53,149 bases of DNA. Origin: an uncultured Monoglobus sp. GTDB lineage: Bacteria > Bacillota > Clostridia > Monoglobales > Monoglobaceae. Shown one piece after another: positions 11,357 to 53,149 of this stretch. Location: NCBI GenBank assembly GCA_947624775.1, contig CANQLT010000006.1, positions 1 through 53,149 of the forward strand, in the 5' to 3' direction. Numbering within the stretch: position 1 is the stretch's first letter; every line of letters begins with the position of its first letter. The notes below the pieces were generated by a model. The model saw only the letters and a list, made by a program, of their open reading frames with translations. It was not told the DNA's origin and did no database searches. The position numbers and the translations under genes were made by a program.

Positions 11357-11382
11357 ATTAATTTCTTCCCATTAATTTGCAT

Positions 11383-11410
11383 GCAAAGACCTGTTTCGGC
11401 AGGTCTTTGC
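11383..11410 (+). terminator. Hairpin downstream of the pectate lyase (terminator-like, poor T-tract)
   Basis: GCAAAGACCTG-tttcgg-CAGGTCTTTGC. Confidence 0.55.
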
Positions 11411-11471
11411 GCTATGTAATTGTATAAGTCTTGCGGTTATAACAGTATCGGGTTGAAAATCAAACTAACTC

Positions 11472-11500
11472 TTGATTTTTTCTTCAAACTGTTGTATAAT
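11472..11500 (+). promoter_or_regulatory. Promoter for P-type ATPase gene
   Basis: TTGATT - 17 nt - TATAAT (11495-11500). Confidence 0.6.
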
Positions 11501-11587
11501 ATACCAATATTATCAAGTAAGTGTCGGCGCGCGGCCAACGCGCCCTATTTAAACAGCGGTTACGCATGCGGAGGAAATACAGGACTT

Positions 11588-13948: not shown

Positions 13949-13965
13949 AAGTTAAAATTTTCTAT

Positions 13966-13993
13966 TGACAAATAATTTATACGTGCTATAATA
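13966..13993 (+). promoter_or_regulatory. Promoter for cysK
   Basis: TTGACA - 16 nt - TATAAT. Confidence 0.65.
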
Positions 13994-14059
13994 GTATTAT
14001 ACAGAAAAACATACCAAACATATAGGATATATTGATTTTATGAAAAGAGGTTATGTCAA

Positions 14060-14989
14060 ATGTCAAAAATTTACACAAAGATCACAGATCTGATCGGAAA
14101 TACTCCGCTATTGGAGCTTTCGAATTTTGAGAAAAAGAACGGGCTTGAGGCAAAAATAATCGGCAAACTGGAATATTTCAATCCGGCGGGCTCGGTCAAG
14201 GACAGGATAGCAAAGGCCATGATAGAAGAGGCGGAGGAATCAGGAAAGCTGAAACCCGACTCGGTTATAATCGAGCCGACATCGGGCAACACGGGAATAG
14301 GCCTCGCCTCGGCCGCGACAGCCAAAGGATACAGAATAATCATCACCATGCCCGAAACCATGAGCATGGAACGCCGCAATCTGCTCAAAGCCTATGGCGC
14401 CGAGCTTGTGCTCACGGAAGGCAGCAAGGGTATGAAGGGCGCGATCCAAAAAGCTGAGGAGCTCGCGAAAGAGATCCCTAACAGCTTTATACCCGGGCAG
14501 TTCACAAACCCGGCCAACCCCGCCTGCCATAAGGCGACAACAGGTCCCGAGATCTGGAACGACACAGACGGCGAGATCGACATATTTGTTTCGGGAGTCG
14601 GAACCGGCGGCACTATCTCGGGTATCGGCGAATACTTAAAATCAAAAAATCCGAATATCAAAGTCGTAGCTGTCGAGCCTGCATCCTCACCCGTGCTTTC
14701 AACCGGCAAGGGCGGCCCCCACAAAATTCAGGGCATAGGCGCGGGATTCGTTCCCGAGACCCTCAACACCGAGATATATGACGAGATAATAACCGTCACA
14801 AACGAAAACGCCTTAAAAACCGGCAAGGATGTTGCCCGCGCCGAAGGAATGCTGGTTGGCATATCCTCTGGCGCCGCGGTATGGGCAGCGGCCGAACTCG
14901 CCAAAAGACCGGAAAACAAAGGCAAAACAATCGTTGCCCTGCTCCCCGACACCGGCGAGCGCTATCTCTCCACAACAATGTATGACTAA
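14060..14989 (+). CDS. cysK: cysteine synthase A
   Basis: [45 protein letters not shown]. Confidence 0.96.
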
Positions 14990-15007
14990 AACTCAATAAT
15001 CTAACCC

Positions 15008-15048
15008 AACGGCACGAACCCGCAAAACGCGGCCCGTGCCGTTTTTTT
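15008..15048 (+). terminator. Intrinsic terminator after cysK
   Basis: AACGGCACG...CGTGCCGTTTTTTT. Confidence 0.9.
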
Positions 15049-15066
15049 ATTAAATTCCACGTATGT

Positions 15067-15095
15067 TTGCAATTCAAAAACCAATGTGCTATACT
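15067..15095 (+). promoter_or_regulatory. Promoter for the two-component operon
   Basis: TTGCAA - 17 nt - TATACT. Confidence 0.55.
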
Positions 15096-15136
15096 GTCTA
15101 TAGATAAAAAATAAATTTAAAAGCGGGAAAGATATT

Positions 15137-15814
15137 ATGAAATTACTTTTGGTTGAAGATGATTTAAGCTTAATAAACGGACTTTCATTCGCCTTAAAGA
15201 AACAAGGCTTTGATTTGGACATAGCACGCACAAGCGAAGAAGCAACAGCATTTTTCGCGGACGGAAAATACTGCTTGGTTATTTTGGATGTGTCGCTTCC
15301 CGACGGAAACGGCTTTGATTTATGCAGGACGATCCGCAAAAAATCAAAAGTGCCGATCATATTTTTAACCGCCGCGGACGAGGAAACGGACATTACAATG
15401 GGCCTTGACATCGGCGGCGACGACTATATTACAAAGCCGTTTAAGCTGTCGGTACTGGTTTCGAGGATTAACGCGATACTGCGCAGAAGTGGCGGCTTTA
15501 AAAATGATGCGGAGTTTAGCTCAAACGGAATAACCGTAAAGCTGCTCTCGGGCGATGTATATAAAAACGGCGAGCGAATAAATTTGACGGCCGGAGAATA
15601 TAAGCTGCTTTGTATGTTTATGAAAAATTCCGATATTGTCTTATCATCTGACCGAATACTTGGAAAGCTTTGGGACTGCGACGAAAAATTTGTGGACAGC
15701 AACACGCTCACGGTATATATACGCCGTCTGAGAACAAAGATAGAGGATGATCCGGGCGCGCCTAAAATGATCGTTACAGTTCGCGGTTTGGGATATAAAT
15801 GGAGTGTAATATGA
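15137..15814 (+). CDS. OmpR-family response regulator
   Basis: VEDD, VILDVSLPDGNG, GGDDYITKPF, C-terminal winged helix (TVYIRRLRTKIEDDP..VRGLGYKW). Confidence 0.95.
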   Translation: MKLLLVEDDLSLINGLSFALKKQGFDLDIARTSEEATAFFADGKYCLVILDVSLPDGNGFDLCRTIRKKSKVPIIFLTAADEETDITMGLDIGGDDYITKPFKLSVLVSRINAILRRSGGFKNDAEFSSNGITVKLLSGDVYKNGERINLTAGEYKLLCMFMKNSDIVLSSDRILGKLWDCDEKFVDSNTLTVYIRRLRTKIEDDPGAPKMIVTVRGLGYKWSVI

Positions 15815-16845
15815 AAATATTTACTAACAGAAAAATTAAATCACTTTTTATATTAATGATGTTTTGCGTTTTTGCCTTTGCGGTTGTTTCGACGCTTTTA
15901 ATGATTTTCGACGTCAAAAATGCGGCGGCGTATATTTTTATCGCGGCAATCGCCGCGTTTGCCGTGGCGCTTGCGGACATATACAGATATTTTCGCAATC
16001 AGAACAAAACCATAGAAACCGCCGAAGAACGGATAACGGATTACATCTCCGGAAACCACGCCGCGCGAATCGAATGTGACGACGAGGGAGAGCTTAATAA
16101 GCTGTTCCATAAGGTCAATTTGCTCGCTTCCGTTCTGAACGCACACGCGGAAAATGAGGCAAAGTCGAAGGAATTTTTGAAAAACACCATATCAGACATT
16201 TCACACCAGTTGAAAACGCCTCTCGCCGCGCTCAACATCTATAACGACATTATCCAAGACGAAACGGAAAATCCCGAAATAAAAGAATTTACCGAGCTTA
16301 CCGACCGGGAGCTTGACCGAATTGAAACGCTTGTGCAAAATCTTTTAAAAATAACCAAGCTCGACGCGGGAACGATACAAATCGAGAAAAAAGATGAAAA
16401 CATGTCGGAAATGATGAACGATATAAAAAACCATTTTATGTTCCGCGCAAAACAAGAGGGAAAGCAAATCAGCTTATCGGGAGACGACATAATCACATTG
16501 CCGTGCGACAAAAGCTGGCTCATTCAGGCGATAGAAAATATCGTCAAAAACGCTCTCGATCATACGGAACAAGGCGGAGAAATAAATATTGAATGGAAGC
16601 GCCTTCCGTCTGTTCTGCAAATTATCGTTAGAGATAACGGCGTCGGTATTCACCCGGAGGATATACACCACATTTTCAAGCGCTTTTACCGCAGCCGATT
16701 CTCAAAGGACACGCAGGGCATCGGTCTCGGACTTCCGCTTGCGAAAGCTATCATCGAAGCGCATGACGGCAGTGTCGAGGTTGACAGCGAGGCCGGGAAT
16801 GGTGCAGCTTTTGTTATTAATTTTTTGATTCCTACAAAATTGTAG
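15811..16845 (+). CDS. sensor histidine kinase
   Basis: TM segments, H-box ISDISHQLKTPLAAL, N-box IENIVKNALDHT, DNGVGI, GIGLGLPLAKAI. Confidence 0.95.
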   Translation: MKIFTNRKIKSLFILMMFCVFAFAVVSTLLMIFDVKNAAAYIFIAAIAAFAVALADIYRYFRNQNKTIETAEERITDYISGNHAARIECDDEGELNKLFHKVNLLASVLNAHAENEAKSKEFLKNTISDISHQLKTPLAALNIYNDIIQDETENPEIKEFTELTDRELDRIETLVQNLLKITKLDAGTIQIEKKDENMSEMMNDIKNHFMFRAKQEGKQISLSGDDIITLPCDKSWLIQAIENIVKNALDHTEQGGEINIEWKRLPSVLQIIVRDNGVGIHPEDIHHIFKRFYRSRFSKDTQGIGLGLPLAKAIIEAHDGSVEVDSEAGNGAAFVINFLIPTKL

Positions 16846-16870
16846 GATAAAATTAATCTCTCGGTAGGAT
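16831..16870. promoter_or_regulatory. Candidate response-regulator operator at HK/ABC junction
   Basis: Palindrome CCTACAA-aa-TTGTAGG (16831-16846) plus repeated GTAGGAT (16842-16848, 16864-16870). Confidence 0.4.
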
Positions 16871-16880
16871 TTTGGTGTTA

Positions 16881-16903
16881 TTCTGTTATTGAAAATAACA
16901 GAA
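16881..16903 (+). other. Perfect hairpin abutting the RBS of the ABC ATPase gene
   Basis: TTCTGTTATT-gaa-AATAACAGAA, immediately before agagg. Confidence 0.6.
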
Positions 16904-16916
16904 AGAGGTGTTTTAC

Positions 16917-17600
16917 ATGAATTTGCTTAAAGTAGAATCCGTTTCAAAAACCTACGGCAGCGGCGAAGCGGCAGTTGAGGCTCTTAAAAACGTCAGCTTT
17001 ACCGTGCCGAAGGGCGAATTTGTCGCGGTGGTCGGCGAGTCGGGCAGCGGAAAATCAACGCTGCTCAATATGATAGGCGCACTCGACACGCCCACGAGCG
17101 GAAAAGTTTTCATAGACGGAAAAGACACGTTTGCGATGAAGGAAAAGAATCTGACAATCTTCCGCCGCAGAAATATAGGTTTTATTTTTCAGTCATTTAA
17201 TCTTATTCCCGAACTCACGGTAGAGCAAAACATAATATTCCCCGTCCTGCTCGACTATCAAAAGCCTGACAAGCGGTATTTGGAGGAACTTTTGACGGTG
17301 CTCAATTTGCATGATCGCCGTAACTATTTGCCGAGTCAGCTCAGCGGCGGACAGCAGCAAAGAGTCGCAATAGGCCGCGCACTCATCACCCGCCCCGCGC
17401 TGATACTCGCTGATGAGCCGACCGGAAACTTGGACACACAAAACAGCAGCGAGGTGATCTCGCTATTAAAGAAAGCGTCCAAAAAATACGAGCAGACTAT
17501 CATAATAATCACCCACAACCGCGCCATCTCCGCGTCCGCCGACCGCGTGCTTCAGGTATCCGACGGTGTGCTTACCGATTTCGGGAGGTGCAGAGAATGA
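16917..17600 (+). CDS. ABC transporter ATP-binding protein (MacB/BceA/LolD type)
   Basis: GESGSGKST, FQSFNLIPELTVEQNI, LSGGQQQRVAIGRAL, LADEPTGNLD. Confidence 0.95.
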   Translation: MNLLKVESVSKTYGSGEAAVEALKNVSFTVPKGEFVAVVGESGSGKSTLLNMIGALDTPTSGKVFIDGKDTFAMKEKNLTIFRRRNIGFIFQSFNLIPELTVEQNIIFPVLLDYQKPDKRYLEELLTVLNLHDRRNYLPSQLSGGQQQRVAIGRALITRPALILADEPTGNLDTQNSSEVISLLKKASKKYEQTIIIITHNRAISASADRVLQVSDGVLTDFGRCRE

Positions 17601-19927
17601 AAAGCTATCTCGATTTAATTCCCATTTCCGCGCGTGTGAAGAAAAAGCAGAATATAATGACAATTATATGTATTGTGCTCGCCGTTTTTCTCGTAACAGC
17701 CGTGTTTTCTATGGCGGATATGGGTATGCGCATGGAGGAGGCAAGCGCAAAGCAAAAGCACGGGAATTGGCATATTATGCTCCATAATATTTCCGCTGAA
17801 AACGCTCGGAAAATTGCTGCCCGTCCCGATGTTGCGTCATATTCCGAATATGATGTGATAAACTACAAAATCGACGAAAATTATTATGTCGGCAATAAAA
17901 AAACAGCTGTTGCCGGTATGGACAAAACGTGGCTCACCGATATATTTGATTATATTACGGAGGGCGAATTTCCGCAAAACGAAAATGAGGTTGTTATATC
18001 TGAAAACGCAAAGGATATATGGAACATAGGTATAGGCGACACGGTAAAACTAAACACTCCCGCGGGAGATTTTGAGTATACCGTGTCGGGCTTTGAGCGG
18101 GACGGCGACTCGGCAAGATATGACGCGATTATTCTCTGCATGGATATGACGGCGTTTGAAAAGGTGCGCTCCGCAAACGGCAAGCCGCCTGAGACGACAT
18201 ATTACTATCAGTTCAATAAGTATATCAACGCGCGCAAGACTATCAACGAAATCAAGGAAGAATTTAATCTTACAGATGATAATATCAGCGAAAACCTTGT
18301 GATGATAGGCTTAACAGGATTCAGCGAAAATAACGTATTACAGGGAATGTACGCCACCGCCGCATTTCTCTTTCTGCTGATACTGATTGCCGGAGTGCTG
18401 ATGATCGCAAGCAGTATGAACAGTAATATTGCCGGGCGGACGAGATTTTTCGGTATGCTGCGCTGTACTGGCGCAAGCAAGAAACAAATCAAACGGTTTG
18501 TGCGCCTTGAAGCGCTTAATTGGTGCAAAACAGCTGTTCCGATAGGTGTTGTTTTCGGAATGATAATCACATGGGCGCTGTGCGCGGTGCTTCGGTTTGG
18601 CATAGGTGGCGAGTTTTCCGAAATGCCGCTTTTCGGTATAAGCGCAGTCGGTATCGTATGCGGCGTTTTGGTCGGAATTATAACGGTTCTTATTGCGGCG
18701 CAGTCTCCTGCAAAGCGTGCGGCGAGCGTGTCGCCAGTTGAAGCGGTATCAAACAGCTCACAAACAAAAAGCCGCCGCGCCGCAAATACAAAGCTCCTGA
18801 AAATTGAAACGGCGCTGGGCGTTCGACACGCGGTATTATCAAAGAAAAATCTGTTGCTTATGACAGGCTCATTCGCGCTCAGTATTATTCTCTTTTTGGG
18901 ATTTTCCGCGATCCACGATTGGACGCGCCACGCACTGAACGGCTTACAGCCCCACACGCCCGATCTGTCCATAGCAAGCGATGATCGTTCCTGCACAATT
19001 TCGCGTGAGCTAACGGATAAAGTTGGTTCTATGACAGGCATAAAGAAGGTTTTCGGGCGTGCTTTCAGCGGAGATCTCCCAACCGAAACAAACAAAGGCG
19101 TAACGGCGATTGACCTTGTTTCGCTCGACGATATGCAGTTTAACTGGGCTGACGAGGAAAACTGGACAGAGGATAACATAGGTTTGGAGCGCGGCTATAA
19201 AGAGGGCGACTGCGTGATGACAGTATATGACAAGGATAACCCGCTTGAAAAAGGCGATAAAATTATATTAAACGGCGAAACGTTGGAAATCGCTTGTGTA
19301 CTGACCGACAGTCCAATAGGCGGCGGAGGAAACCCGACAATAATATGCACGGAAGAAATATTCAGGCGGCTGACTGATAATACGGGATACGCTGTTGTTG
19401 ACATTCAGCTTGCCAAGGACGCAACGGACAGTGATATGCGCGCCATTCGAGCCGAAACCGAGGCAAACGGCTTTTTGCTGACGGACAGGCGGGAAAGCAA
19501 CCGCGGAGTGGTCGGAACATATTGGGCGTTCACTTTGCTGGTATACGGATTTTTGTCGCTGATTGCTCTTATTTCCGTGTTCAGCATAATTAACAGCATT
19601 TCCATGAGCGTGTCCGCGCGGATGAAACAGTACGGGGCGATGCGCAGCGTAGGCATGAGTGCGGGTCAGCTTACAAAAATGATATGCGCCGAAACGGTAA
19701 CATACACTTTATGCGGACTTCTTTGCGGTTTGGCGGCAGGTCTGCCTATCCATAAGCGCTTTTATGAGAGCTTTGTAACGGCATATTTTGGCGAATCATG
19801 GGAGCCGCCGATTTTAGCGGCAATCGTAATTGTGACATTTATAATCTCAGCTTCCGCCGCCGCAGTATACGTGCCGTCGAGACGTATTAAAAATATGTCT
19901 GTTGTGGAAGTGATAGCAAACGAATAA
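17597..19927 (+). CDS. FtsX/MacB-like ABC transporter permease
   Basis: 779-aa ORF, large extracytoplasmic region, duplicated FtsX-like TM blocks (MLRCTGASKKQIKRFVRLEA; MRSVGMSAGQLTKMICAET). Start at 17597. Confidence 0.92.
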   Translation: MKSYLDLIPISARVKKKQNIMTIICIVLAVFLVTAVFSMADMGMRMEEASAKQKHGNWHIMLHNISAENARKIAARPDVASYSEYDVINYKIDENYYVGNKKTAVAGMDKTWLTDIFDYITEGEFPQNENEVVISENAKDIWNIGIGDTVKLNTPAGDFEYTVSGFERDGDSARYDAIILCMDMTAFEKVRSANGKPPETTYYYQFNKYINARKTINEIKEEFNLTDDNISENLVMIGLTGFSENNVLQGMYATAAFLFLLILIAGVLMIASSMNSNIAGRTRFFGMLRCTGASKKQIKRFVRLEALNWCKTAVPIGVVFGMIITWALCAVLRFGIGGEFSEMPLFGISAVGIVCGVLVGIITVLIAAQSPAKRAASVSPVEAVSNSSQTKSRRAANTKLLKIETALGVRHAVLSKKNLLLMTGSFALSIILFLGFSAIHDWTRHALNGLQPHTPDLSIASDDRSCTISRELTDKVGSMTGIKKVFGRAFSGDLPTETNKGVTAIDLVSLDDMQFNWADEENWTEDNIGLERGYKEGDCVMTVYDKDNPLEKGDKIILNGETLEIACVLTDSPIGGGGNPTIICTEEIFRRLTDNTGYAVVDIQLAKDATDSDMRAIRAETEANGFLLTDRRESNRGVVGTYWAFTLLVYGFLSLIALISVFSIINSISMSVSARMKQYGAMRSVGMSAGQLTKMICAETVTYTLCGLLCGLAAGLPIHKRFYESFVTAYFGESWEPPILAAIVIVTFIISASAAAVYVPSRRIKNMSVVEVIANE

Positions 19928-19965
19928 CAAATTAAAAATTATTTTTAAATGCCGAAAAATTATAA

Positions 19966-19998
19966 AAGAGCGTATCGTTTTCGGATACGCTCTTAAAT
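19966..19998. terminator. Bidirectional terminator between permease and tyrS
   Basis: AAGAGCGTATC-gttttcg-GATACGCTCTT with flanking A/T runs. Confidence 0.85.
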
Positions 19999-20003
19999 AT
20001 TTT

Positions 20004-21236
20004 TTATGCTTTTGTGATTTTGAGGAACGTTTTTTTGCCTTTTTTGACGACCATTTCTCCGTCTTTGAAGTAGGAGGCGTCAATTACCGTGCCTATGTCT
20101 TTGACCTTTTCGCCGTTGACCGAAAGTCCGTTCTGCTGGATCAGGCGCCTACCCTCGCCCTTTGAGGGTATCAGCTTGACCTCGAGCAGCAGGTCGAGGA
20201 TGTTAACGCCCGCGTCGATCTTGGCCGCGTCGGTCTCGGCGGACGGCATGTTGTCGGTGTTTCCGCCGCCTCCGAATATTGCCATTGCCGCGTCGTTGGC
20301 TTTCTTTGCCTCGGCCTCACCGTGAACCATCTTTGTGACCTCGTATGCCAGAACGCACTTGACTTTATTAAGCTCGGCACCCTCGCACTTTTCATATTCG
20401 GCAATCTGCTCCATCGGCAGGAAGGTCACCAGCTTTAAAAGTCTGATAACGTCCGCGTCGTCAACGTTTCTCCAGTACTGATAGAACTCATAGGGCGAAA
20501 CCTTCTCGGGATCGAGCCACAACGCGCCCTTTTCGGTCTTGCCCATCTTTTTGCCCTCGCTTGTGGTGAGCAAAGTGAAGGTCATGCCGTAGGCCTGCTT
20601 GCCGTCCTTGCGGCGGATAAGCTCGATTCCGCCGATGATGTTCGACCACTGGTCGTCGCCGCCAAACTCCATGATCGCGCCATAATCCTTGTGAAGCTTG
20701 TAGAAATCATATCCCTGCATCAGCATATAGTTAAACTCAAGGAACGAGAGACCCTTTTCAAGTCTGGTCTTGAAACACTCCGCGGTGAGCATCCTGTTTA
20801 CCGAGAAGTGAACTCCGACCTCGCGGAGGAAGTCGATATAATTAAGGTCAAGCAGCCAGTCGGCGTTGTTTACCATGATCGCCTTTTCGCCGTCAAAGTC
20901 GATAAACTTTGACATCTGCTTTTTAAAGTTGTCGGCGTTGTGCTGTATCTGCTCCTGCGAGATCATGGGGCGCATATCGGCCTTGCCCGTGGGGTCTCCA
21001 ACCATCGTTGTGCCGCCGCCCAGCAGCACGATCGGTCTGTGTCCCGCGTTCTGCATGTGCTTCATAACGATAAGCTGCATAAAGTGGCCTATATGAAGGC
21101 TGTCGGCCGTCGGGTCGAATCCGATATAGAACGTGATCTTTTCCTTGCCGAGAAGCTCTCTTATTTCATCCTCATGAGTGGTCTGCGCGATGAGGCCGCG
21201 CTCCTTTAAAATGTCAAATACGTTTCTCTCAGTCAT
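20004..21236 (-). CDS. tyrS: tyrosyl-tRNA synthetase
   Basis: [41 protein letters not shown]4-like C-terminus. Confidence 0.96.
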
Positions 21237-35590: not shown

Positions 35591-35674
35591 GCGGGCGTGG
35601 CGGAACTGGCAGACGCGCCAGACTTAGGATCTGGTGGTTTTCCCGTGCAGGTTCAAGTCCTGTCGCCCGCACCA
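35591..35674 (+). tRNA. tRNA-Leu (anticodon TAG), CCA encoded
   Basis: GCGGGCGTGGCGGAACTGGCAGACGCGCCAGACTTAGGATCTGG...GTTCAAGTCCTGTCGCCCGCACCA. Confidence 0.97.
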
Positions 35675-41800: not shown

Positions 41801-44491
41801 GATATAATCCTTGGGTTCCAGCTTGATGGTACTCTTTTCATCGGTCATGCTGAATGGGATCTGATACTGCGCCCCGGACTGTCCTATGGGCGAGGAGCTG
41901 CCGCCCCAGCCCGCAAAATTATAGCGTTCATCTGTGCCGTACGGCTCGATGGTTATACTGTCCGCCGCATAAAGGGTGATTTTCTTATCCTTGTCACCAC
42001 TGTTCAGGCTCCAGGGGCCGCCGTGTGAAGATGTATTGTCGGTCAGCTTCATGCCGCCGTTTTTGTCGGATTTAAGCGTGACCGAAACAGCCTTCTTCGA
42101 ATAGATAGGCTTCAGCTTAATGGTGCCGTAATCGTTGCTTCCCGTTGTGTTGTTCGCCTTAAAAGCAACGCAGCAGTAATCCAATAACTCCGCCAAATCA
42201 AGAGTCAAGCCTTTCGGGTCAAAAAATTCCGCCGAATTGGTTACCTGGTATGTTTTATTATTGATAGTAACCTCCATTCCGGTCAGCACATAGTTGTCGT
42301 TTCTGGTTGTTTCTACAAGGGAAACCTTCTCTCTGCCGTAAAAGCTCATTTTCGTGCCCTGTGATTTATTGTCCCTAGACTGCATCGCCAGTGTGCCGGG
42401 GATCACGCCGTCAATGGGGTCGGGATTTACCATTTCAAAGGGCAGTTCCATGTATTTGAAACGGACAGCTTTGATCTCGGTGTGCATACCGTTAAAGCCG
42501 CCGCTGTTCTTGTAAACCTCCCATGTGAAATATTGCGGTTTAATGGACGGCCACGTGCCATTGTTCTTTATAAAATTACTTGGGCTGTAACTCTGCCGGG
42601 CGCCGCCGGGGTCATCTACATTACCGGTTTGCAGATCAATGGTTGTTGTCTGTCCGGACGTGTGATCTCCCACAAAAGTAATCGTTGAGTTTCCGTGGAA
42701 TGCGTCGTTGTTATCCTTCATCGATTGATTTTTGACAAGGGAGAAAAAGTTATAGTTGGCTCTGACGCCTTCATAGTCTTCCGCATACCAATCTATGGAA
42801 ACCGATTGAATCGGGGGCATCGAATTCACATTGAAGTTGCGTGTGAAGCATATATAAGTGCCGCAGCATCCGCACCCATGATCCGGAATATCAAAATAAT
42901 AATATCCGTCTTTGTATCCGGCGCTTTTGCCTTTGCAAGGACCGGATAAGACTAAAGAACCAATGGAAAAAAGGCTATTTATATCAAACTCAAAATGGTC
43001 ATAAAACTCTTCTCCGTCAGCTTTAAACGGATTATTGGAACTGTTTGCCTTGATTTTCTTGCCCGTCGCTGCACTCGTGACAATACCGTCGCTTGAGTCA
43101 TTTGAGGCGGACAAAATTTCCACCGTGGTATAGTTCTCGCTGACGTCACAGCCCACGGCATTGGCAAGACTCAGGTATATGGTTTTCGCTCCGCTGCCCG
43201 CAACACCGGTCATGGGTACTTCTATGGTCTGTGTGTCCATGCCGGGCATGAAGACCACGTTGCCCTGGATCAACACATTATTGGTGTCTGTAATGGCTGT
43301 GAACGTCACAGTGCTGAGCTGATACAGAGGGTCGTTCCGGCGCAGCTCCGCCTTGAAGCTGTCGGAATCCTCGCTGATGCCGGTAACCGTGGCGCTGTCC
43401 ACATAAACATAGGGAGAAACATAGTCCTCGTCGTCCTTAATGGTGATCTGCGCGTTGTTTCTCACATCAAGGGCATAGCCGTCGCCCGAGCCGTTTATGT
43501 ATGCCACAAACACTCTGTCGCCGTTGCTCTCGTCGTCATTGTTGGGGTACACCGTGACTTTTTTCAGAGTCTCTCCGTCCTCAAACACGACCTCTGTTTC
43601 GGCACAGGGAAAAGCCTCGGCCATCAGCTCGTTGCTGATGCGGGCAGTTTCGGGATCGGAATCTTCCCCGGTTATAAAGTTGCCGAAGGTAAGGTTGCTG
43701 CCCGAGAACTGGCTGACCTGATCGTTCAGGGCGTAAAGGGGGCTTTTTTCCTCCGCTTCGCCGGCGCTCTGGTATATGGGCTCCTCCGCAGAAACGGACT
43801 CGCTTTGCGCCGAGGCGTCCGCCTCCTCGTTATCCTCGTCGGCAGGAACATTCTCATCAGCGGCAACATCCTCGTCAGTAGCAGCATCCTCGTCGGCAGG
43901 AATATCCTCGTCTGCGGCAGCATCCTCATCGGCGTCGGCAGCGTCTTCCTCCGCCTCACCGGCGGATTCTTCCTCATCCTTCGCCGTGGCCTCGATGTAT
44001 TCACCGACCAGCTCCTCCATATGCTGCACGCTTTCCTCGCCGTATTGGTCCACCAGATCCTCATAGGTGGCGTCCTCGCCGGTCAGAGGGTTATCCTGCG
44101 AGAACATATACATGATCGGAACCGCGTTCTCATTTGGTTCGATCTCATCCTTTGAGAAAACGGAATTCTCCACCTCGGCGGTGTAGTCCTTGCCGTACTG
44201 CGCGGAATAGTCCTGGAACCTGAGACTGAGCTTCGCCTCGCCCTGGGTCCCGCCGTATCTGGCGATATAGAACGTCAGAGGTTCTCCCGCGTTCTCGTCA
44301 ACCTCGGCGGCGATCTGCGGTATCGCAAACAGACCGCCGGGATATTGCTCTTTTAGAACAGGATCCGCGTTTTCCAATGATTCCCGGATCGCGCTGAGCT
44401 CATCCCTTGTGCCGTCCTCGGCAAAAGCCAAAGTAGGCACCGCTGTCAAGACCATACTCAGCACAAGCATGAAAGAAATAATACGTTTCAT
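35855..44491 (-). CDS. Giant (2878 aa) secreted SLH-domain surface protein
   Basis: Signal peptide MKRIISFMLVLSMVLTAVPTLAFA; acidic repeat region; Calx-beta-like N-terminal segments; CARDB-like and Big_2-like segments; three C-terminal SLH repeats (FADVSTTDWFYDDVKYAYENGLMNG..., FADVPADAYYHDAVAWASANGIVNG..., YTDAGDISEYAIPAIQWACGAGLMSG...). Confidence 0.9.
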   Translation of the reverse strand: MKRIISFMLVLSMVLTAVPTLAFAEDGTRDELSAIRESLENADPVLKEQYPGGLFAIPQIAAEVDENAGEPLTFYIARYGGTQGEAKLSLRFQDYSAQYGKDYTAEVENSVFSKDEIEPNENAVPIMYMFSQDNPLTGEDATYEDLVDQYGEESVQHMEELVGEYIEATAKDEEESAGEAEEDAADADEDAAADEDIPADEDAATDEDVAADENVPADEDNEEADASAQSESVSAEEPIYQSAGEAEEKSPLYALNDQVSQFSGSNLTFGNFITGEDSDPETARISNELMAEAFPCAETEVVFEDGETLKKVTVYPNNDDESNGDRVFVAYINGSGDGYALDVRNNAQITIKDDEDYVSPYVYVDSATVTGISEDSDSFKAELRRNDPLYQLSTVTFTAITDTNNVLIQGNVVFMPGMDTQTIEVPMTGVAGSGAKTIYLSLANAVGCDVSENYTTVEILSASNDSSDGIVTSAATGKKIKANSSNNPFKADGEEFYDHFEFDINSLFSIGSLVLSGPCKGKSAGYKDGYYYFDIPDHGCGCCGTYICFTRNFNVNSMPPIQSVSIDWYAEDYEGVRANYNFFSLVKNQSMKDNNDAFHGNSTITFVGDHTSGQTTTIDLQTGNVDDPGGARQSYSPSNFIKNNGTWPSIKPQYFTWEVYKNSGGFNGMHTEIKAVRFKYMELPFEMVNPDPIDGVIPGTLAMQSRDNKSQGTKMSFYGREKVSLVETTRNDNYVLTGMEVTINNKTYQVTNSAEFFDPKGLTLDLAELLDYCCVAFKANNTTGSNDYGTIKLKPIYSKKAVSVTLKSDKNGGMKLTDNTSSHGGPWSLNSGDKDKKITLYAADSITIEPYGTDERYNFAGWGGSSSPIGQSGAQYQIPFSMTDEKSTIKLEPKDYIIYPKYSAEGTFVRLSLDKTVPDINIPLEQIQADIDDMMKNNDMKAGDVISIDLRKFLDPDIYHSASTKHVPTWTVNTENHPWKGLNIGGWTLYYEIHNGDNEITLSFENADAAEVPELNGKALKYSASLLNPPVLNTGEPIDGYEPAAGATVSAGSFYGLTKSDGTYSLHWTEGDEAAGENISYPMMLNSGNEYITALINSNHINTLALLKPDKQTGKVGDVVVDFFASEEEPQPVGISVLVGPSGEIPSYEKADTQNAAMGQVNMSDSSVGFRLNVHDQYKKLKSVVFTIYDTEMAKRNEYTVDVQPDSYDYAVDLTSVPTELDTGEIVKMPLNALLNFHDGDRVFVDLKGAETVTGADGTVGEVEVSYGEFDTGITFHEVPGQDIEIQIPNIGPDETSPDLPTLDVIGKMTPKVSAGPLTVQAIVTATSFECNIGFSVGLLNKVLKQQFPEKLTTQKEMDAYTEREVAKKELKEASKQVDEASKSDNPVDQANAAAVLTEAEEKYQAADAAWNEAANTAPITGGNQAQNITTPDKNQMSDVLNTAKNSAKAFDKETAALDKLLDALTQADSYTDKRQAAAARDAVVKSKGSIGMNLGMTFGITFKFVAGVSPDNPEEGTWLFDNAMVYGQVGFAISGVFYITIPGFPIPMYAGFGFSTSLGLYNGIQSTKTTTLNELQIDPKSLVYKGNIPISIGIEGFVGAGIRKLLSLEFDLGFLQQFNLGFGPGTSGTGTSTFYGAFEINLVFLNFNWKFLQQSWDYTLYNVGSVQAAVDEAMQGFDPKLSEMEVNTKDYENSFYVPGTGEVTAVSAAEQTNRYDLVTDSVNMRTNVVPLGGGKYFTAFEGIDSSRDKYNRNAVYYSIYDGSDWSTPEILQNDGTIDTGLNVDDFGDKIMISWTSADKTFTEDDFTELDIESQDEEFKIPYDSSLKMLSSLDVYSVVIDKNAAANGIPEESITQVTKNTETEDRFKWGLAHESPHAVQLPDGRIVLFYTTVDYNEYGGDKITTLSRLLAVPGVTMYRIYENGAWSETYSESEQGKYGDEWYGQRILDVNLSDPEGKTTYYPLAGQTDMISTTYEGENKILAAYVVDGDNNLATSTDRTVFMSVLTPGSDNGMVTSAPINLSGMADVSHPRFVRSVTDEFGEVNMIVWAQNGELRYLNLDKMFGDYDFGNESESIPDEEKTMLEKSEITLPNGTQIPSYTLKDEYDPGVAIYNDPDPETGEVGMSYGNGYTVVNGEDGNVYVLWPQSTGDEQKLMISTLTLRPNENGTYDELWRIPREFSLESENDEEREYVDNPSAGVDENGNMVILYNDFDMVDVTATDEDGNEIMAGKTRDNNDLCAAHFTSIGSLEFTEGSIELSDDYPKAGEEFSVTAEVENTGLLASKSVNAKAEIVETAADGSENVIQTVDASSEDMLLAGGKTEITAYLDMTQDMIDKALAGASYKAVLTVSEPDRGETSSVEAPIRVGSRLDIGNINVISGRSHEIKGIDENGSLIRGDVNGSVFVVVTEITNSGNVEASNPRLIMEIENQNILDDPNAPDMDTASDEEIQEYLESAPQNASVVNSSGFTPYTEVGWMDEDGDIEAIGVGESTTVTIRSMPITDDKFSANKAAGFMLEVYDGEKRAPLYDEAGEVSGEGTYDLDAFNVNAFKSFTGTIPEEDVPLALNIRRDGNDVEQAEVGVGGTLSLEAGILPLAAAADSNVTWSSSNENIAKVGPNGDVTGIGSGTVTITAEIDGTELADSVTVNVKESSGGHSPSGGGSIGGGGGTFGTGNATPTPTPSEEPQATAEPPKELPFADVSTTDWFYDDVKYAYENGLMNGVSDTAFDPNANITRGMFVTVLYRIDGSPEGGTSSFADVPADAYYHDAVAWASANGIVNGYSDTEFGPDDDILREQMATMLYRYATYKGIDTSVGEDTNILSYTDAGDISEYAIPAIQWACGAGLMSGNGDGTLTPLGNAIRAEAAAVFGRFDKTFK
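43825..43960 (-). repeat. 18-bp tandem repeats encoding (A/P)ADEDxx acidic motif
   Basis: Repeated gc(g/a)g(c/g)a(a/g)(c/t)atcctcgtc-type units; protein ADEDAAADEDIPADEDAATDEDVAADENVPADED. Confidence 0.85.
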
Positions 44492-44863: not shown

Positions 44864-44953
44864 TTGAAAAAATTTTTTACTATTCGACAAGTTGTGCAAA
44901 GCTGCGGGATATCCCGCGCTGTGATTCTTTCGGCATTGCCGATAGATGCTTAA
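44864..44953 (+). pseudogene. Truncated MerR-like HTH N-terminus (29 codons)
   Basis: TTG start: LKKFFTIRQVVQSCGISRAVILSALPIDA*, resembling a MerR N-terminal helix-turn-helix cut after the second helix. Confidence 0.45.
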
Positions 44954-45186: not shown

Positions 45187-45854
45187 TCATCTGCTGCCAT
45201 GGCCATGTTGTACAGCGCAGATATTATATAACTCTTCGATCTGCCCGTGCGTTATCAGGCGATAAAGGTTTTCATAGTCGACTTTTTAATTTCGGATTTT
45301 ATTTGCTCATATCTATCCATCCTACATTATTGTTTTTCTTCACAGACACGTGATTGATAGATGGATAGATAGTTTGTTATGTTAGTTTTTAATATTTTAG
45401 TATTTTAATAAATTAGTATTTAATTGCGTTGACTTATCCAACATTGGATTTTCCAATATAGGCTTTTCCAACGTAGGATCATCCGATATAGGGTTTACGG
45501 ATACAGGTTTTTCTCAACATTATTTTCTGTGTCACATTCTTTCTGCCTCGGCACCTCATAAAAAGTGTATTCGGTCTTTGAGAGTTTGCCGCTGCTGCTT
45601 ATCAAGCGTCTGCGTTTCACATATCCTGCGCCTTCAAGGTCTTTAATAGACGAGCGAATGGCGTCAACGACCTCTTTGCTGATTGCAGCCAAACCTTTGA
45701 TAGTAAAATCCCAATTATCGGGCAGACTGAGAACAACCGACAACAACCCTTTTGACCTCAAAAATAATTCTTTGCCGTTTTCGGCGCTTTTCCCACAAAG
45801 CACACTTCGTTGGTGCTTTGCGGAAGCCCTAAGAGACCGCTTTTTTATGAACAC
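45187..45854 (-). pseudogene. Decayed plasmid/ICE-type replication-initiator-like HTH protein
   Basis: SKGLLSVVLSLPDNWDFTIKGLAAISKEVVDAIRSSIKDLEGAGYVKRRRLISSSGKLSKTEYTFYEVPR, then out of frame EKPVSVNPISDDPTLEKPILENPMLDKSTQLNTN, NTKILKTNITNYLSIYQS, MDRYEQIKSEIKK and VDYENLYRLITHGQIEELYNI. Confidence 0.65.
45437..45511 (-). repeat. Five degenerate 15-bp tandem repeats
   Basis: tccaacattggattt/tccaatataggcttt/tccaacgtaggatca/tccgatatagggttt/acggatacaggtttt. Confidence 0.85.
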
Positions 45855-45994
45855 CTTTCTTGCAAGGTGCTCTTTTTTACCCGTTTATGCTCCAAAACGG
45901 GTGTTTCGTGTCATAGGTATTGAAAAATTATTTTTTATGTGATATAGTTATGCATGATTAATTTGAATTATTGTGGCCTGTCAGGCACGCCCCC

Positions 45995-46036
45995 CTTGGG
46001 GATAATCAGCAAACCTGCTTGCGGGTTATCCCCAAG
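45995..46036. repeat. Perfect 11-bp inverted repeat with 20-nt loop
   Basis: CTTGGGGATAA ... TTATCCCCAAG. Confidence 0.85.
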
Positions 46037-46095
46037 AGGCGAGGCTAAAATTTGAAAATTATTAATACACACATACACACAAGGAGGATTTTATC

Positions 46096-46683
46096 GTGTT
46101 CCGAGACTCGGTCAACAACGATAAATACGACTGCAAAAATTGTTATTTCAAGCTGACTGACAGCATTGATCTTGAGAGCGACGAAAATAATCAGCATATC
46201 GCGATCGGAAGTCCGTTCGCGCCGTTTAACGGGCATTTCGACGGAGACAACCACTCTATTCGCAACATAATTATTTATAAGGGCGTTTGGCAGGCGAACA
46301 ATGATACCGGAGACTATCAAGGTTTGTTCGGCTATATAGGCGAGAGCGGCTCGGTCAAAAATCTGAGCGTCAGCGGATATATCGTCGGACTGCGGTATGT
46401 CGGCGGCATAGCGGGATACAGCGACGGTGTTATCGAAAACTGCACAAACTATTGTATAATTCACAGTGACAATTATAAAGATTCTTTTTCCAGACTCGCG
46501 GTTTATTCCGGATTGGCCGGCGGCATCGTAGGCTCAAGCGGCTCCGATATAATCAACTGCGGAAATTTTGGCACCGTTTTCGGAGATCTGGAAGATATTG
46601 TAGGTCATGGCAAGTACTGTGTCGGATGGTTTGGGGGGTATCGTCGGAGACAGCCGCGGCGGAAATATATTGAACTGTTATAA
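46096..46683 (+). pseudogene. GLUG-repeat adhesin-like gene, fragment 1 (lacks signal peptide)
   Basis: GTG start, FRDSVNNDKYDCKNCYFKLTDSIDLE...IGSPFAPFNGHFDGDNHSIRNI...GLFGYIGESGSVKNLSVSGYI...GGIAGYSDG. Frame lost at G6 tract 46633-46638. Confidence 0.8.
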
Positions 46684-46752
46684 TACCGCTCTGGTTACGT
46701 CGAGTTTTGATATTAATTTTAAAGGCGGTATCGTGGGCGAAAAGAAAAACGG

Positions 46753-46778
46753 AAAAATAATAAACAAAAATAATAAAC
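46753..46778 (+). repeat. Perfect 13-bp tandem duplication inside the adhesin gene
   Basis: AAAAATAATAAAC x2. Confidence 0.95.
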
Positions 46779-46835
46779 TGTTATAATACCGGAAGTACGA
46801 GGACCGGAGGGTCGACCTCGGCGAAAGTCAACGCC

Positions 46836-48926
46836 GTGCCGGCGGGTATAGTAGCGTGCTATGACCAAAACAGCTCGGTGGAAAACTGCTATCATATAGG
46901 AGATTTTATAACTTACGCAACCTTTAAACGCGCTTTGCCCATTGGCAACAGCCCCTACAAAAGCAAGGACAACATGATCAACTGCTACTACCTCGACGGA
47001 TATTATAAGGATGGTGGCGCCACAGCGCTGAGCAAAGAGGAATTTTCAAGGCAGTGGATTGTGGACAGCCTTAACCAAAACAATGGTTCCGCTTGGGCGA
47101 TAAGCCCGCATCTCGGCAGGCCCGTGCTTGTTGATAATCCCGAGTCTTTTTACGGCAGCGGCACCGAGGAGGATCCGTATGTTATCAAAAACGCTCAATC
47201 TCTCGCGTATTTTCGGGATTATGTCAACAACGGCAACGACTGCGCGGGGAAATATGTGCGTCTTGACGCCGATATCGATATGTCGATACTTTTTACTAAG
47301 CATAATTTTAAGGATTATGACTTTGTGTACAATGGGAAGAACTATGACGAACCGTCTGAAAACCCGATGACTTCGATAGGCACGGCCAAAACTCCGTTTA
47401 ACGGGTATTTCGACGGCAACTGCCATAAGATCACCGGAATTACCAAGTTCGCGGAAACCACAACCGCATACGATGATCGTCAAGGCTTGTTCGGATGTAT
47501 CGGCAGCGAAGGTACGGTCGACAAGCTGAGCGTGAAAGGAGAGATCGACTTTTACAGTAGTAACATAGGCATCATCGCGGGCATCTGCTACGGAAAGATC
47601 ACAAATTGCTATACCGATGTATCTCTCCGAAGCAATGGTAACGTGTCTGCGGGCGGCATTGCCGAGATTCTTGAAAACGGCGGCGAGATAACGAATTGCT
47701 ACAGCATTGGAAAACCCGAAGTCCCCTACGGTTCGGCGGGTCTCGTTCGCTTATTGGAAGACGGTTCTAAGATATCGAACTCATACTATTACAATAAGAA
47801 CGTAGGCACAGGAGTTTTCGGGCTCATCGCATACTACAAACAACCTTCGGCGGTGATAGAAAACTGCTATGGGCTTGATGACGAGAGCTTCGGCGCCCAT
47901 AGCGTCTCTGAACCGAAAGATGACACCGGATTGATCAAAGAAGACGAATTCAAAAATTTGGCGGAAGCTCTGAACAACGGCGGCAGCGCATGGGTGGACT
48001 CGTCTTTGGGAAGGCCGATACTTTGCGAAAATCCCGAAACGGATATGCTGGGCAGTGGCACCAAGGATGATCCGTATCTTATAACGAACCTTGCAACGCT
48101 CGAGCGTTTCCGCGATTATGTAAACAGCGGCAAGGGAGAGGGCGAGTATTTCGAAATAACAAACGATATAGACCTGTCCGAAAAATACGGCGAGTCGACG
48201 GCGTCCTGGAAACCCATAGGCAGCACTTCTGTACCGTTCCGCGGCACGCTTGACGGCGGCGGGTACAAGATAAACGGGCGTTACATAAGAGACATCAGTT
48301 CCGTCTACTTCTTATTTGGCATAATTAGCAGATACCCCTCACACTTGGGTCTGTTCGCGAGCGTCGGCGAGGGCGGAACCGTTATGAATCTGTCGGTTTC
48401 GGACAAGATAAACTGCACCGCCGATCACGTGGGCCTCATCGCGGGCAGATGTGACGGTCAGATGTACAACTGCTTTGCCGCCGAGGACATTACCGCAAAC
48501 GGTTTAGTAGCAAACAGCAACTTCTTCGGCGAAACCCGCATCAACGCGGATTGCGTCGGAGGAATCACGGGCGAATGCTCGGGCACTCTGTCGCTTTGCG
48601 GCAGCGCCGTGACGATCAACTCAGACGGAAATTACATTGGCGGTATTGCGGGAAAATACGGAAACAATCTGCTGTCGCTCTGCACCGTGCATAAAAATTA
48701 CGAAAACATTACATCGTCGATCACGTCGAGCGGAAACTGCGTTGGCGGAATTGTCGGCGAAATCGGAACCGGAAACGGCGCCGTGGCGCGCGGCGTCACG
48801 GCCTGCGAGAACGGCGCGGCGGTAAGCGGCGGCGAGCGCGTTGGCGGAATTGCCGGAAAATTTAATGGCGGATCCGTGCCATCGAACCGTGTCGGAGAAG
48901 TGCCTTGGGACTCCGAGGAGAGCTAA
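46836..48926 (+). pseudogene. GLUG-repeat adhesin-like gene, fragment 2
   Basis: LGRPVLVDNPESFYGSGTEEDPYVIKNAQSLAYFRDYVNNG modules, GGIAG...NCY motifs; ends at in-frame TAA 48924-48926. Confidence 0.85.
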
Positions 48927-50168
48927 GAGGGCAGCTCCTTGATAGGAGGCTGCACAAACTCGGGCGCGGTAAAAGGCGTCAATTACGCCGGAGGCATCGC
49001 GGGTGAAACCGCGACGGCGATAGTCGAGAACTGCCAAAACACCGTCGAGGTCAGCGGCAGCTCAAATATCGGCGGCATCACGGGCCGCGCCGCAAACGGC
49101 TATATAGTAAGCTGCGGAGTCGGAGCGTCTGTGAGCGGCGACGGAGACAGCGTCGGCGGCATCACGGGATCGGGTGAGAGTAATACTATATCAAACAGCT
49201 CCCTGAACACGGGCATTAGCGTTACAGGCGGCAGCAACGTCGGAGGTATCGTCGGCAGCGCGAGCAATGACATGATGACAAACTGCTATGTCCCGGGCAA
49301 AGGCACGATCACGGGCCGCGGCGAAAACACCGGCGGCATCGTGGGATATTATGCGGGTGAAGGAGATCTCAGAAAATGCACAAACAATAATATTGTCTCG
49401 GGCAAACAGAATACGGGCGGCTTACTCGGAGGCACGGACATAAGCAGTTCTGTCGGTTTATACAACTGCAGCAACTGCGGAGATGTTTCAGGCGAGGACT
49501 TCACGGGAGGCATAACCGGCCTTGAAACCAACAGCTTGATAATATATTGCGCGAACAGCGGCAAGGTTGAAGGAAAAGACAACGTGGGCGGAATTATCGG
49601 AGCGTCCGGTTTCTCCGGAGCTTACCACGCAATTGATACAACATACAACTTAGGCGCGGTAAGCGGAAAAACCAATGTGGGCGGAGCCGCGGGACAGAAC
49701 AAAGGCCATATTACGGATGTGTATAACGTGGGAACCGTCACCGGCGAGGAAAATGTCGGCGGCATAGCGGGACAAGATGAAAATAACGGACAGCCGTTCA
49801 GCGGGGTATTCGACGGGGGTTACAACTACGGCGCGGTCATGGGAAATACAAACGTCGGAGGCATTTTCGGAATTTCGAGAGGAAGCATCAAGGACGTATA
49901 TTATCTAAGTACCGCCGCCCAAAGCGCGTGCGGCTCCGGAGACAGCTCAGGCACAGAAGCGATAGACAAGCAGCAATTTGAGAGTTTGATCGAAAGGCTG
50001 CAAGATTACGCTTGGAAACAAAGCCCGATTTTGGGAAGGCCGATCCTTGTCAGCAATCCCGAGATAGGATTGAGCGGCACCGGCACGCCCGAAGACCCGT
50101 ATCTGATATCGGAGGCGACTATGATCACCCGTTCGCAGGCATATTCGACGGCGGCGGTCACACGATAA
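48927..50168 (+). pseudogene. GLUG-repeat adhesin-like gene, fragment 3 (same frame as fragment 2)
   Basis: IGGCTNSGAVKGVNYAGGIAGETATAIVENCQNTVEVSGSSNIGGITG... many GLUG motifs. Confidence 0.85.
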
Positions 50169-52864
50169 GCGGACTTTATGCAAGCGGCGGCGAATACGCG
50201 AGTCTGTTCGGAGTTGTCAGAGGCGGAATGGTCAAAAACCTGGCCGTTTCGGGCTCGCTCGTCGCAGGAAGTTTTACGGGCGGTATAGTCGCCTGCCTCG
50301 AGGGCGGAACTATTGAAAACTGCCTGAGTGAATGTAATATTTCGACGTCAAGATGGTCAAACTCCGTGAAAACCGGCGGAATCGTCGGCTCGTTTGAGAG
50401 GGATCTCTCCACCCTCGCGGCTTCAAGTATCAGCAACAGCTTGAGCTTAGGCAACGTCAACGCGCCAAACAGCGTCGGCGCGGTAGTCGGCGGCAGCGGA
50501 AGCTCGGACTGCAAAATTACGAACTGCTACTATCTCGAAGGCACAGACCCGAGCGGAATAGGCGGTTCGGGAGGTTCGGGAAGTCCGGTGGCAAAGACCG
50601 CGTATGAGCTCAAGAGCGGCTCGGTCGCAAATTTGCTCCAAAACGGCGGATCTGACCCGATATGGGGCCAGACGATAGGAACAGATGAGCATCCCGTTCC
50701 GTCGGGCGACATAAACAAACAGGTTTATGAGGTCAAATTCAATGTCGGCGGAAGTGAGACGTTATATGCGCCGCAGTATGTGAATTACGGCGGCACGGTA
50801 ACATTACCTGAACTGCCTGCAGAGGACGATGTACAGATATTTGCAAAATGGTCAACTACTGAGAGCGAGCCATACGATGAGTTCACCTCTCAGACAAGAG
50901 TAGAAAAAGACCTGACGCTGTATCCGATCGGCAGAGTGAAGTTCGGCGGCGAAAGCGATATAATCAAGCTCAACGCCGACGAGGGCTACGACCCGTCGAT
51001 AACAGTTGAGCTTGACGATTATATATCCTACGCAAAGGATGAAGTTTCATCCGAAGGCAAGTTCACCTACACGATAACAGACGACGGCAGGACAGGTGCT
51101 ATAATATCGGGCGGCAGCACTCTGCTTATCCCCAAGGGCCTGACTATGGGCGAGTACAACATCAGGATAACAGCAAAAGAGAACGAGCCGGGCTTTGCGC
51201 TTATGAGCGTTGACGAATACGGAACAAGTGACATCGAGCTGCTTGTGAGGCTGTCGATCAGAACAAGAGCCTCTTATGTTGAGACTACCGCCGACCAAGA
51301 GGTGACCTACGGCGAACCCCTGACGCTGACTGCTCAAATTTTGAGAGCCGATTCGGGCATAAGCCTCGCGGCTGTGACCGACGCGGTCAACTTCTACCTT
51401 GGCGATACCCTGCTTGGCGTAGCCGATGTGGAATACACCAACCAAACCAGGGACAGCGGCACAGCGACGCTCAATATAACGGCTGATAAACGCTTTGCCA
51501 TAGGCGAAAACAAGATACGCGCGGAGTACGGCGGAAGCGTGAACCTGTCGGGCAGCGGCAGCGACGAGATAACGGTGGTTATGAACCCGAAGCCCATCGA
51601 ATACTCTGTGCTGGCGATAAGCAAGGTATACGACGGAACACCCGACGCCGAGCTGCTTCTGGTACCGCTGAACACCGGAGATGATGATATTATCGCCGCA
51701 GCGACAGGAGAGTTCACGAATGAGGAAGGCCCCTCGGCGAAAGTCGGCGAATACCAAACCGTAAATATCACCGAAACCACATTTTACGGAGAGGACGGGA
51801 TGTATTACATCATTGACGGAGCAAAACAAAATGTTCCGCTTGATTTACCCGCGAATATATACACTGAAGGCGAAGGAACATCCGTGAAAATGTCCGACTA
51901 TTACTGCGGAGGCCTGCGAATGACGCCTCCGATAGCTGTGTCCGAGATATACAACATTGAGGATGTGACATATATGTTTAAGCCAAAGGACGCCGCCGAG
52001 ACAGAATATTCGGAAGATATACCGCAAACCGCGGGCGAATATACGATAAAGGCTATCTTCCCCGAAACCGAGGTCTTTGGCGGAGCCGAGGCGTATGATA
52101 ATTTCACGGTACACCATAAATACGGCGAGTGGAAGATAACAAAAGAACCGACCCATGACGAAACGGGAACGGCGGAAAGACAATGCTTGGGCTGCGGCAA
52201 TGTTGAGTCCACGGAATTGAAGGTACTCTCCGACGAAAACTTCTGGAAAAAGGGCGAAGAGACTAAGCCCACATCGACCAGCGACGGCTTGCAGGAATAT
52301 ACTTCCGACTACGGCACGGTGACCGAGACAATACCTAAACTGACGGTTGATAGAATACAAATCGCATCAGAGCCGACCACCAAAACGGTCATCGAGGGAA
52401 TGCCCCTTGACACAAGCGGACTTGTTGTTGAGGCGTTTTACCCTGACGGTTCCACAGTAGAGATAACCGATTATAAATTATCGGACTACAATACATCGAC
52501 AGTCGGCGATCAGACTGTGACCGTTACATACGGAGATTTTAAAGCCGAGTTTAAGATAACGGTAGTGCCCAAGTCCGTCACGGGAATAGAGATAACGCAG
52601 CTGCCCGACAGACTGGAGTACACTCAAGACGAAAAGCTTGACACAAACGGATTGATCGTCACCGCAAGCTACAACAATAACACGAGCAAAGAAATAGAGA
52701 TAAGCGAATGTGAGATAAGCGAGCTTACCGATAAAGTCGGAAAGCAGAAGATAACAGTCACATACGAGGGCCAAACTGCCGAGTTTACCGTCAATGTGAT
52801 CGCACCCGTGGCTCCCCCCCCAAACAGTCGAGAAACCGCTGATAAACGCCGCGGATTACTATGA
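50109..52864 (+). pseudogene. GLUG/Ig-like adhesin-like gene, fragment 4
   Basis: GGDYDHPFAGIFDGGGHTISGLYASGGEYASLFGVV...; Ig-like and bacterial Ig-like repeats (EPTTKTVIEGMPLDTSGLVVEAFYPDGSTVEITDYKLSDYNTSTVGDQTVTVTYGDFKAEFKITV). The ORF call at 50012 has a spurious N-terminus. Confidence 0.85.
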
Positions 52865-53149
52865 CGGAAAGAAAGTAACTATCTCCTGCGCAACCGAGGG
52901 AGCCGTGATCCGCTACACCACCGACGGCAGCGATCCCGACGAAAACAGCCCGATCTATTCCGAGCCGTTTACGCTGAGTGAGACGACGACCGTTAAGGCT
53001 AAAGCGTATAAAGAGGGAATGACGACAAGCAGCATAGCTGAGAAAACTATCGAGGTTAACACCGTAAGCGCACCGAGATTCAGCTATCCTTCGGGAGAAG
53101 TGGACAAAGGCACCATAGTAACGTTGACCTGCGCCACCGACGGAGCCGA
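52821..53149 (+). pseudogene. Adhesin-like gene fragment 5 (runs off window), chitobiase/beta-hexosaminidase C-terminal-like (CHB_HEX_C) repeats
   Basis: Frame after C8 tract: QTVEKPLINAADYYDGKKVTISCATEGAVIRYTTDGSDPDENSPIYSEPFTLSETTTVKAKAYKEGMTTSSIAEKTIEV...VTLTCATDGA. Not in the ORF track. Confidence 0.8.

Follow-up and report, generated by a model that had tools for sequence, protein, structure and literature searches.

Remains of a GLUG-repeat surface-protein gene in an uncultured Monoglobus: very likely a recent pseudogene from a recombining family

The DNA analysed here (the window, 53,149 nucleotides) is the entire contig C6 of a draft genome, G000, of an uncultured gut Monoglobus (2.77 Mb in 182 contigs). 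From 46.1 kb to its end it carries what is very likely a pseudogene, inactivated recently and derived from the gene for an S-layer-anchored GLUG-repeat surface protein, one member of a family that recombines. This reading is based on the lesions seen against an open ortholog, on an intact paralog in the same genome (C45), and on neighbouring genes without a net frameshift.

The two relatives that matter most are L039 and C45. L039 is contig CANRBF010000017.1 of a Monoglobus MAG (Lapin-028 bin81), a sister species, and came from a search of named genomes. Its gene is open for 2,857 aa up to its own contig end, and its intactness therefore covers those 2,857 aa only. Nucleotide identity to the window is 95.9% over 46079-50107 and 84.2% over 50107-53149. 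C45 (L021) is open for 2,458 aa to its contig end and has a signal peptide.

The region 46.1-53.1 kb is confirmed by these alignments as one ancestral GLUG-repeat gene, which would have encoded a cell-surface protein. The original prediction had proposed a single gene across several frames, with module homology and GLUG motifs running from one to the next, and this has held up: C45 aligns to the window gene end to end, and L039 matches 46079-53149. The ORF listing and three-frame translation show continuous coding homology through six segments, carried by the frames 46096-46683, 46604-46783, 46764-48923, then a stop, 48927-50165, 49982-52861 and 52800-53147. The additional, unlisted frame that had been proposed is present as segment 2. 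Module motifs (3 + 3 + 3) lie in the expected frames, as do 12 GLUG motifs of the VGGIxG type, compared with at most one per shuffle in 200 mononucleotide shuffles. Two segments match Pfam Glug above its curated cut-off of 20.5 bits, while NCBIfam has no family for the window segments. The upstream region and the segments are as follows.

45888..46092, + strand: upstream region accompanying the gene (blastn to L039, L021, L040 and L041)
46096..46683, + strand: segment 1, a 195-aa ORF, GLUG head without signal peptide (Pfam Glug 28.2 bits)
46639..46783, + strand: segment 2, the unlisted frame, GGIVGDSRGGNILNCYNTA...GGIVGEKKNGKIIN (three-frame translation and alignment)
46764..48926, + strand: segment 3 (open 46764-48923), GLUG head with two internal modules, 94% aa identity to L039; ends at lesion 4
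48927..50165, + strand: segment 4, GLUG head (Glug 29.8 bits); in-frame homology stops at 50106
50107..52821, + strand: segment 5, the end of the head and then the tail (Pfam and sliding identity), with tail domains Flg_new, Big_3_5, YDG and Big_3 (Pfam)
52822..53149, + strand: segment 6, CHB_HEX_C_1 / Fn3_assoc, truncated where the contig stops

The gene is incomplete on its 3' side, where contig C6 terminates within it. Relatives have open frames of 3,118 codons (L040) and 3,444 codons (L041, which is complete), so about a quarter of the gene would lie outside the window, and its full ancestral length was probably about 9-10 kb. The earlier estimate of 7 kb or more was thus right, although both the contig end inside the gene and the longer open frames of the relatives had been overlooked.

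In the alignments the window copy shows six distinct lesions, one of which took away its start and signal peptide. In order from the 5' end, with the ancestral ribosome-binding site, they are:

46081..46087, + strand: ancestral ribosome-binding site AAGGAGG (L039 alignment and sequence)
46086/46087, + strand: lesion 1, loss by deletion of about 177 bp, start codon and signal peptide included (alignment with L039 and C45)
46633..46638, + strand: lesion 2, a +1 frameshift in a G run (G6) (L039 alignment)
46753..46778, + strand: lesion 3, a 13-bp tandem duplication (AAAAATAATAAAC twice; TRF), single copy in L039
48924..48926, + strand: lesion 4, an in-frame nonsense TAA; L039 has a sense codon
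50106/50107, + strand: lesion 5, an out-of-frame deletion of 130 bp (L039 alignment)
52814..52821, + strand: lesion 6, a +1 frameshift in a C run (C8) (alignments with L039 and C45)

The five breaks named in the original prediction (G run, 13-bp duplication, TAA, deletion and C run) are all borne out by the alignment with L039. That list was incomplete, since comparison of the locus with its relatives adds the deletion at the start. Both ends of this deletion fall in an imperfect direct repeat (ACAAGGAGG / ACAAGGATG), and because of the deletion the ribosome-binding site now stands 8 nt upstream of an internal GTG. Further upstream, blastn aligns 45888-45977 and 46038-46092 with the upstream regions of intact copies. 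The homology is split by a palindromic interspersed repeat at 45992-46036, found genome-wide, which separates the former promoter region from the ribosome-binding site and accounts for most of the 36 other in-genome matches to the upstream query.

Programmed frameshifting and a row of separate small genes were considered and rejected, as the near-identical relative is a single open frame. In addition, no later segment starts with a signal peptide, by inspection.

The intact relatives are built alike. They carry a signal peptide and a long GLUG head, domains of the Ig-like and Fn3-like kinds, and a linker rich in Pro and Thr; those that are complete also have three SLH domains. The signal peptide was recognised by inspection in L039, C45 and C51. 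The complete relative L041 has three C-terminal SLH domains, together with Fn3_assoc/CHB_HEX_C_1, Big_3 and DUF6273 (Pfam); in the window copy, the contig breaks off inside the gene. On these comparisons the window copy appears as a pseudogene derived from the SLH-anchored GLUG family and not as a working member, because its signal peptide is deleted. Contig C51 of the same genome (L010, 2-14999) carries two giant genes in tandem, one for an SLH protein and the other for a GLUG protein from a more distant subfamily; as far as the contig reaches, both are open.

The combination of signal peptide and SLH anchor would place the intact protein on the cell surface. The predicted structure of the head has a mean pLDDT of 64.8 and a pTM of 0.45, with core blocks at 75-92. 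Foldseek matches it to the GLUG-repeat protein 3n6z (E 6.8e-6) and, weakly, to an IgA1 protease (E 2.9e-3), while a PDB sequence search with the head profile gave no match. The family thus resembles other GLUG-repeat proteins (PF07581; for example 3n6z of Bacteroides ovatus and part of the streptococcal IgA1 proteases) in its GLUG motifs and predicted fold. An identity as IgA1 protease (M26) was rejected, since the Pfam matches of L041, L039 and the window ORFs include no M26 peptidase domain; unlike those proteases, the Monoglobus family has an SLH anchor. From the domains and a head model of moderate quality, intact members may act as adhesins at the surface or form an antigenic coat, with a β-solenoid head as their base. 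A literature search found nothing on GLUG combined with SLH, or on S-layer homology proteins of Monoglobus.

The heads of the family fall into discrete allele types, A and B, which do not follow species. Type B is found in C45, G010 and G007 (all three at the tgt locus), in G003 and on contig C14 of G008; type A is found in the window copy and at the tgt locus of G008. This locus is recognised by its neighbours, a Na/Pi cotransporter, tgt, queA, spoIID and glmS. At the orthologous tgt locus, G000, G010 and G007 have type B and G008 has type A, within flanks that are 91.5-94% identical. By alignment, the head A of the window copy has an open and almost identical counterpart in another species, where it occupies a different locus.

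Divergence between species is far lower in the heads than in flanking core genes. Between G000 and G008, dS is 0.058 for head A (95% bootstrap 0.041-0.077) and 0.289 (0.259-0.322) for five flanking core genes. B heads have dS of 0.082-0.136 against 0.26-0.30 for the core. The heads are therefore of more recent ancestry than the species, and we infer that they have moved between species and loci by homologous recombination. The tails show a different pattern. In G008 the A and B copies share an exact run of 441 bp in their tails, and another pair of copies has an identical run of 731 bp. In the window gene, sliding identity shows the tail diverging from L039 near 50.4-50.6 kb and ending identical to C45, which places a head/tail recombination boundary near 50.4-50.6 kb. 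Judged from such shared runs, the tail mosaics are best read as exchange between paralogs inside genomes.

A similar situation is known for the S-layer of C. difficile, in which cassette recombination at slpA diversifies surface-layer genes and the remaining genome keeps its clonal history (PMC7677006). The tgt locus of Monoglobus, where one species has A and three have B, resembles these cassettes. It differs in that exchange would here be between species, each represented by one genome rather than by population data, and in that the part affected is the head of a single giant gene, whose paralogs share tails, with broken copies persisting at other sites. A family copy in another species, at 9562-20321 of G009:C22 (L045), is split into four frames and has a head that is a mosaic of types C, A and B. 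An origin of its breaks at allele junctions was examined; the three frame breaks coincide only loosely with the changes of type.

The original prediction also suggested that the gene could be a silent reservoir of cassettes. Stated in full, heads would be traded between species and loci, and the broken, start-less copies C6 and C15 would be an archive that is copied back into intact genes; in the stricter form, the start-less copy would be kept as a gene-conversion donor for one expressed gene, in the manner of the vls, msp2 and pilS systems. We consider the former unlikely, and the latter similarly improbable. Several features fit. As in a silent cassette, the start is absent, here through deletion of the start codon and signal peptide, while the upstream region is retained and, like the tail, still matches intact genes. 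The second copy in this genome, C15, also lacks a start codon, paralogs of one genome have long identical tail tracts, and in the sister species an open version of this head sits at another locus. The central test speaks against the idea. Of 795 sites informative for A versus B in C45, 771 are B, 14 are A and 10 are other; the 14 A sites are scattered without runs, and there are no A-type tracts in its GLUG head. Moreover, the broken copies are only two, of differing types, with no cluster beside an expression site. A single expression site with a donor array was not found, the C6, C45 and C15 copies being on separate contigs, and the intact copies of G008, several in number, are spread over several loci instead of occupying one expression site. 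A reservoir role in this genome is therefore not supported by the sequence of C45, even if past or rare donation by the window copy could have occurred, given that the family recombines between loci, and other strains might use such a copy as a donor. The closest precedent is in Anaplasma, where broken copies of the surface antigen genes msp2/p44, termed 'functional pseudogenes', recombine with an expression site (PMC2789410). The Monoglobus copies are like them in being homologous to intact copies at both ends and in recombining between loci, and unlike them in having no single expression site with a donor array and in the negative donor test.

The lesions are very probably true mutations, and the original preference for real decay over sequencing error is well founded: they are of differing kinds, a near-identical gene is free of them, and the neighbouring genes have no net frameshift. 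It is very hard to believe that the gene is intact in the cell and broken only by an artefact of assembly or sequencing. Such an artefact might be expected in a draft of 182 contigs with contig ends inside a repeated family, and two of the six lesions do fall in homopolymer runs, yet the remaining four are not homopolymer errors. About 20 kb of neighbouring coding sequence on the same contig, aligned to relatives, shows no net frame-disrupting indel: most indels keep the frame and a few others are compensated within about 20 bases, the exception, in one relative, being a 20-base gap at the extreme end of a gene. The type of assembly is also relevant. The terminal 77 bp of C6 and C45 are identical, and no longer exact run is common to both, which suggests a k=77 de Bruijn assembly of short reads. 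Although the assembler is not recorded, this makes the run-length errors of long-read or flow technologies unlikely. The end of contig C51, taken as a second check of k=77, has an 80-bp match to C167, not at the very end of the latter, and so leaves the strength of this reading unchanged. Least credible of all is a phase-variable (contingency) gene switched by slippage in the two homopolymer runs that carry frameshifts, as G6 and C8 are short runs and the nonsense codon, the start deletion and the 130-bp deletion could not be reversed by slippage.

We therefore return to a pseudogene from a recombining family. Heads would be exchanged between species and loci by homologous recombination, and tails homogenised between paralogs. 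The window copy would have arrived at, or been displaced to, its present site and then been silenced, after which further lesions could gather because nothing was selecting for the silenced copy. Broken members recur, as C15 in the same genome and as the G009 copy in another species. What the window gene shows is ordinary decay, in one member of a surface-protein family that recombines. The shuffled family around it matters more than the broken gene itself: in this little-studied gut genus, giant surface proteins appear to exchange their exposed halves between species. Swapping of this kind makes phage or immune pressure on the coat testable with strain genomes.

The age of the decay was approached through substitutions. 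The window head compared with L039 gives dN 0.032 at the dS noted above. When the changes were polarised, using a distant outgroup, the window branch had 38 nonsynonymous and 19 synonymous changes and the L039 branch 31 and 17 (p 0.84), so that the window branch shows no stronger relaxation than that of L039, whose gene is open. Either the lesions are recent, then, or the A type is free to evolve on both branches. Between the B-type heads of C45 and G010 the ratio is lower than on the window branch (p 0.0002). Selection thus gives no independent proof of decay for the window copy. On the C15 branch there are 159 nonsynonymous and 86 synonymous changes, compared with 186 and 169 on the branches of three open orthologs (p 0.0025), and the excess is a sign of relaxed selection there.

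Near the site of the window copy, homology and synteny with two relatives stop at 44876; in both, a 2,878-aa SLH gene is adjoined upstream by DUF362-like and gyrase-type genes, from reading of the translations. Between 44876 and 45887 there are fragments related to sequences beside other GLUG copies. Together these suggest that the window copy was inserted or rearranged here, or that the contig is chimeric near 44876. A 119-aa ORF at 45495-45854 on the minus strand has no Pfam or NCBIfam match, is partly similar to contigs C2 and C16, and is possibly the remnant of a mobile element. The 2,878-aa SLH protein contains an Asp/Glu-rich repeat at 43776-44066 (ADEDAAADEDI...), whose length differs between species.

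The second broken family member of this genome, C15 (L023, 8076-13830), has lost its start codon, and compared with an open relative of 2,741 codons in G008 it has deletions of 2, 1,171 and 1,279 bp and a +1 shift. Directly upstream of it is a mobile element with relaxase- and integrase-like genes. Elsewhere in the window, homology with G007, G008 and G010 stops at the 3' end of a tRNA-Leu (TAG) at 35591-35674, beyond which G010 carries an integrase-type transposase ORF; the site looks like a hot spot for insertion.
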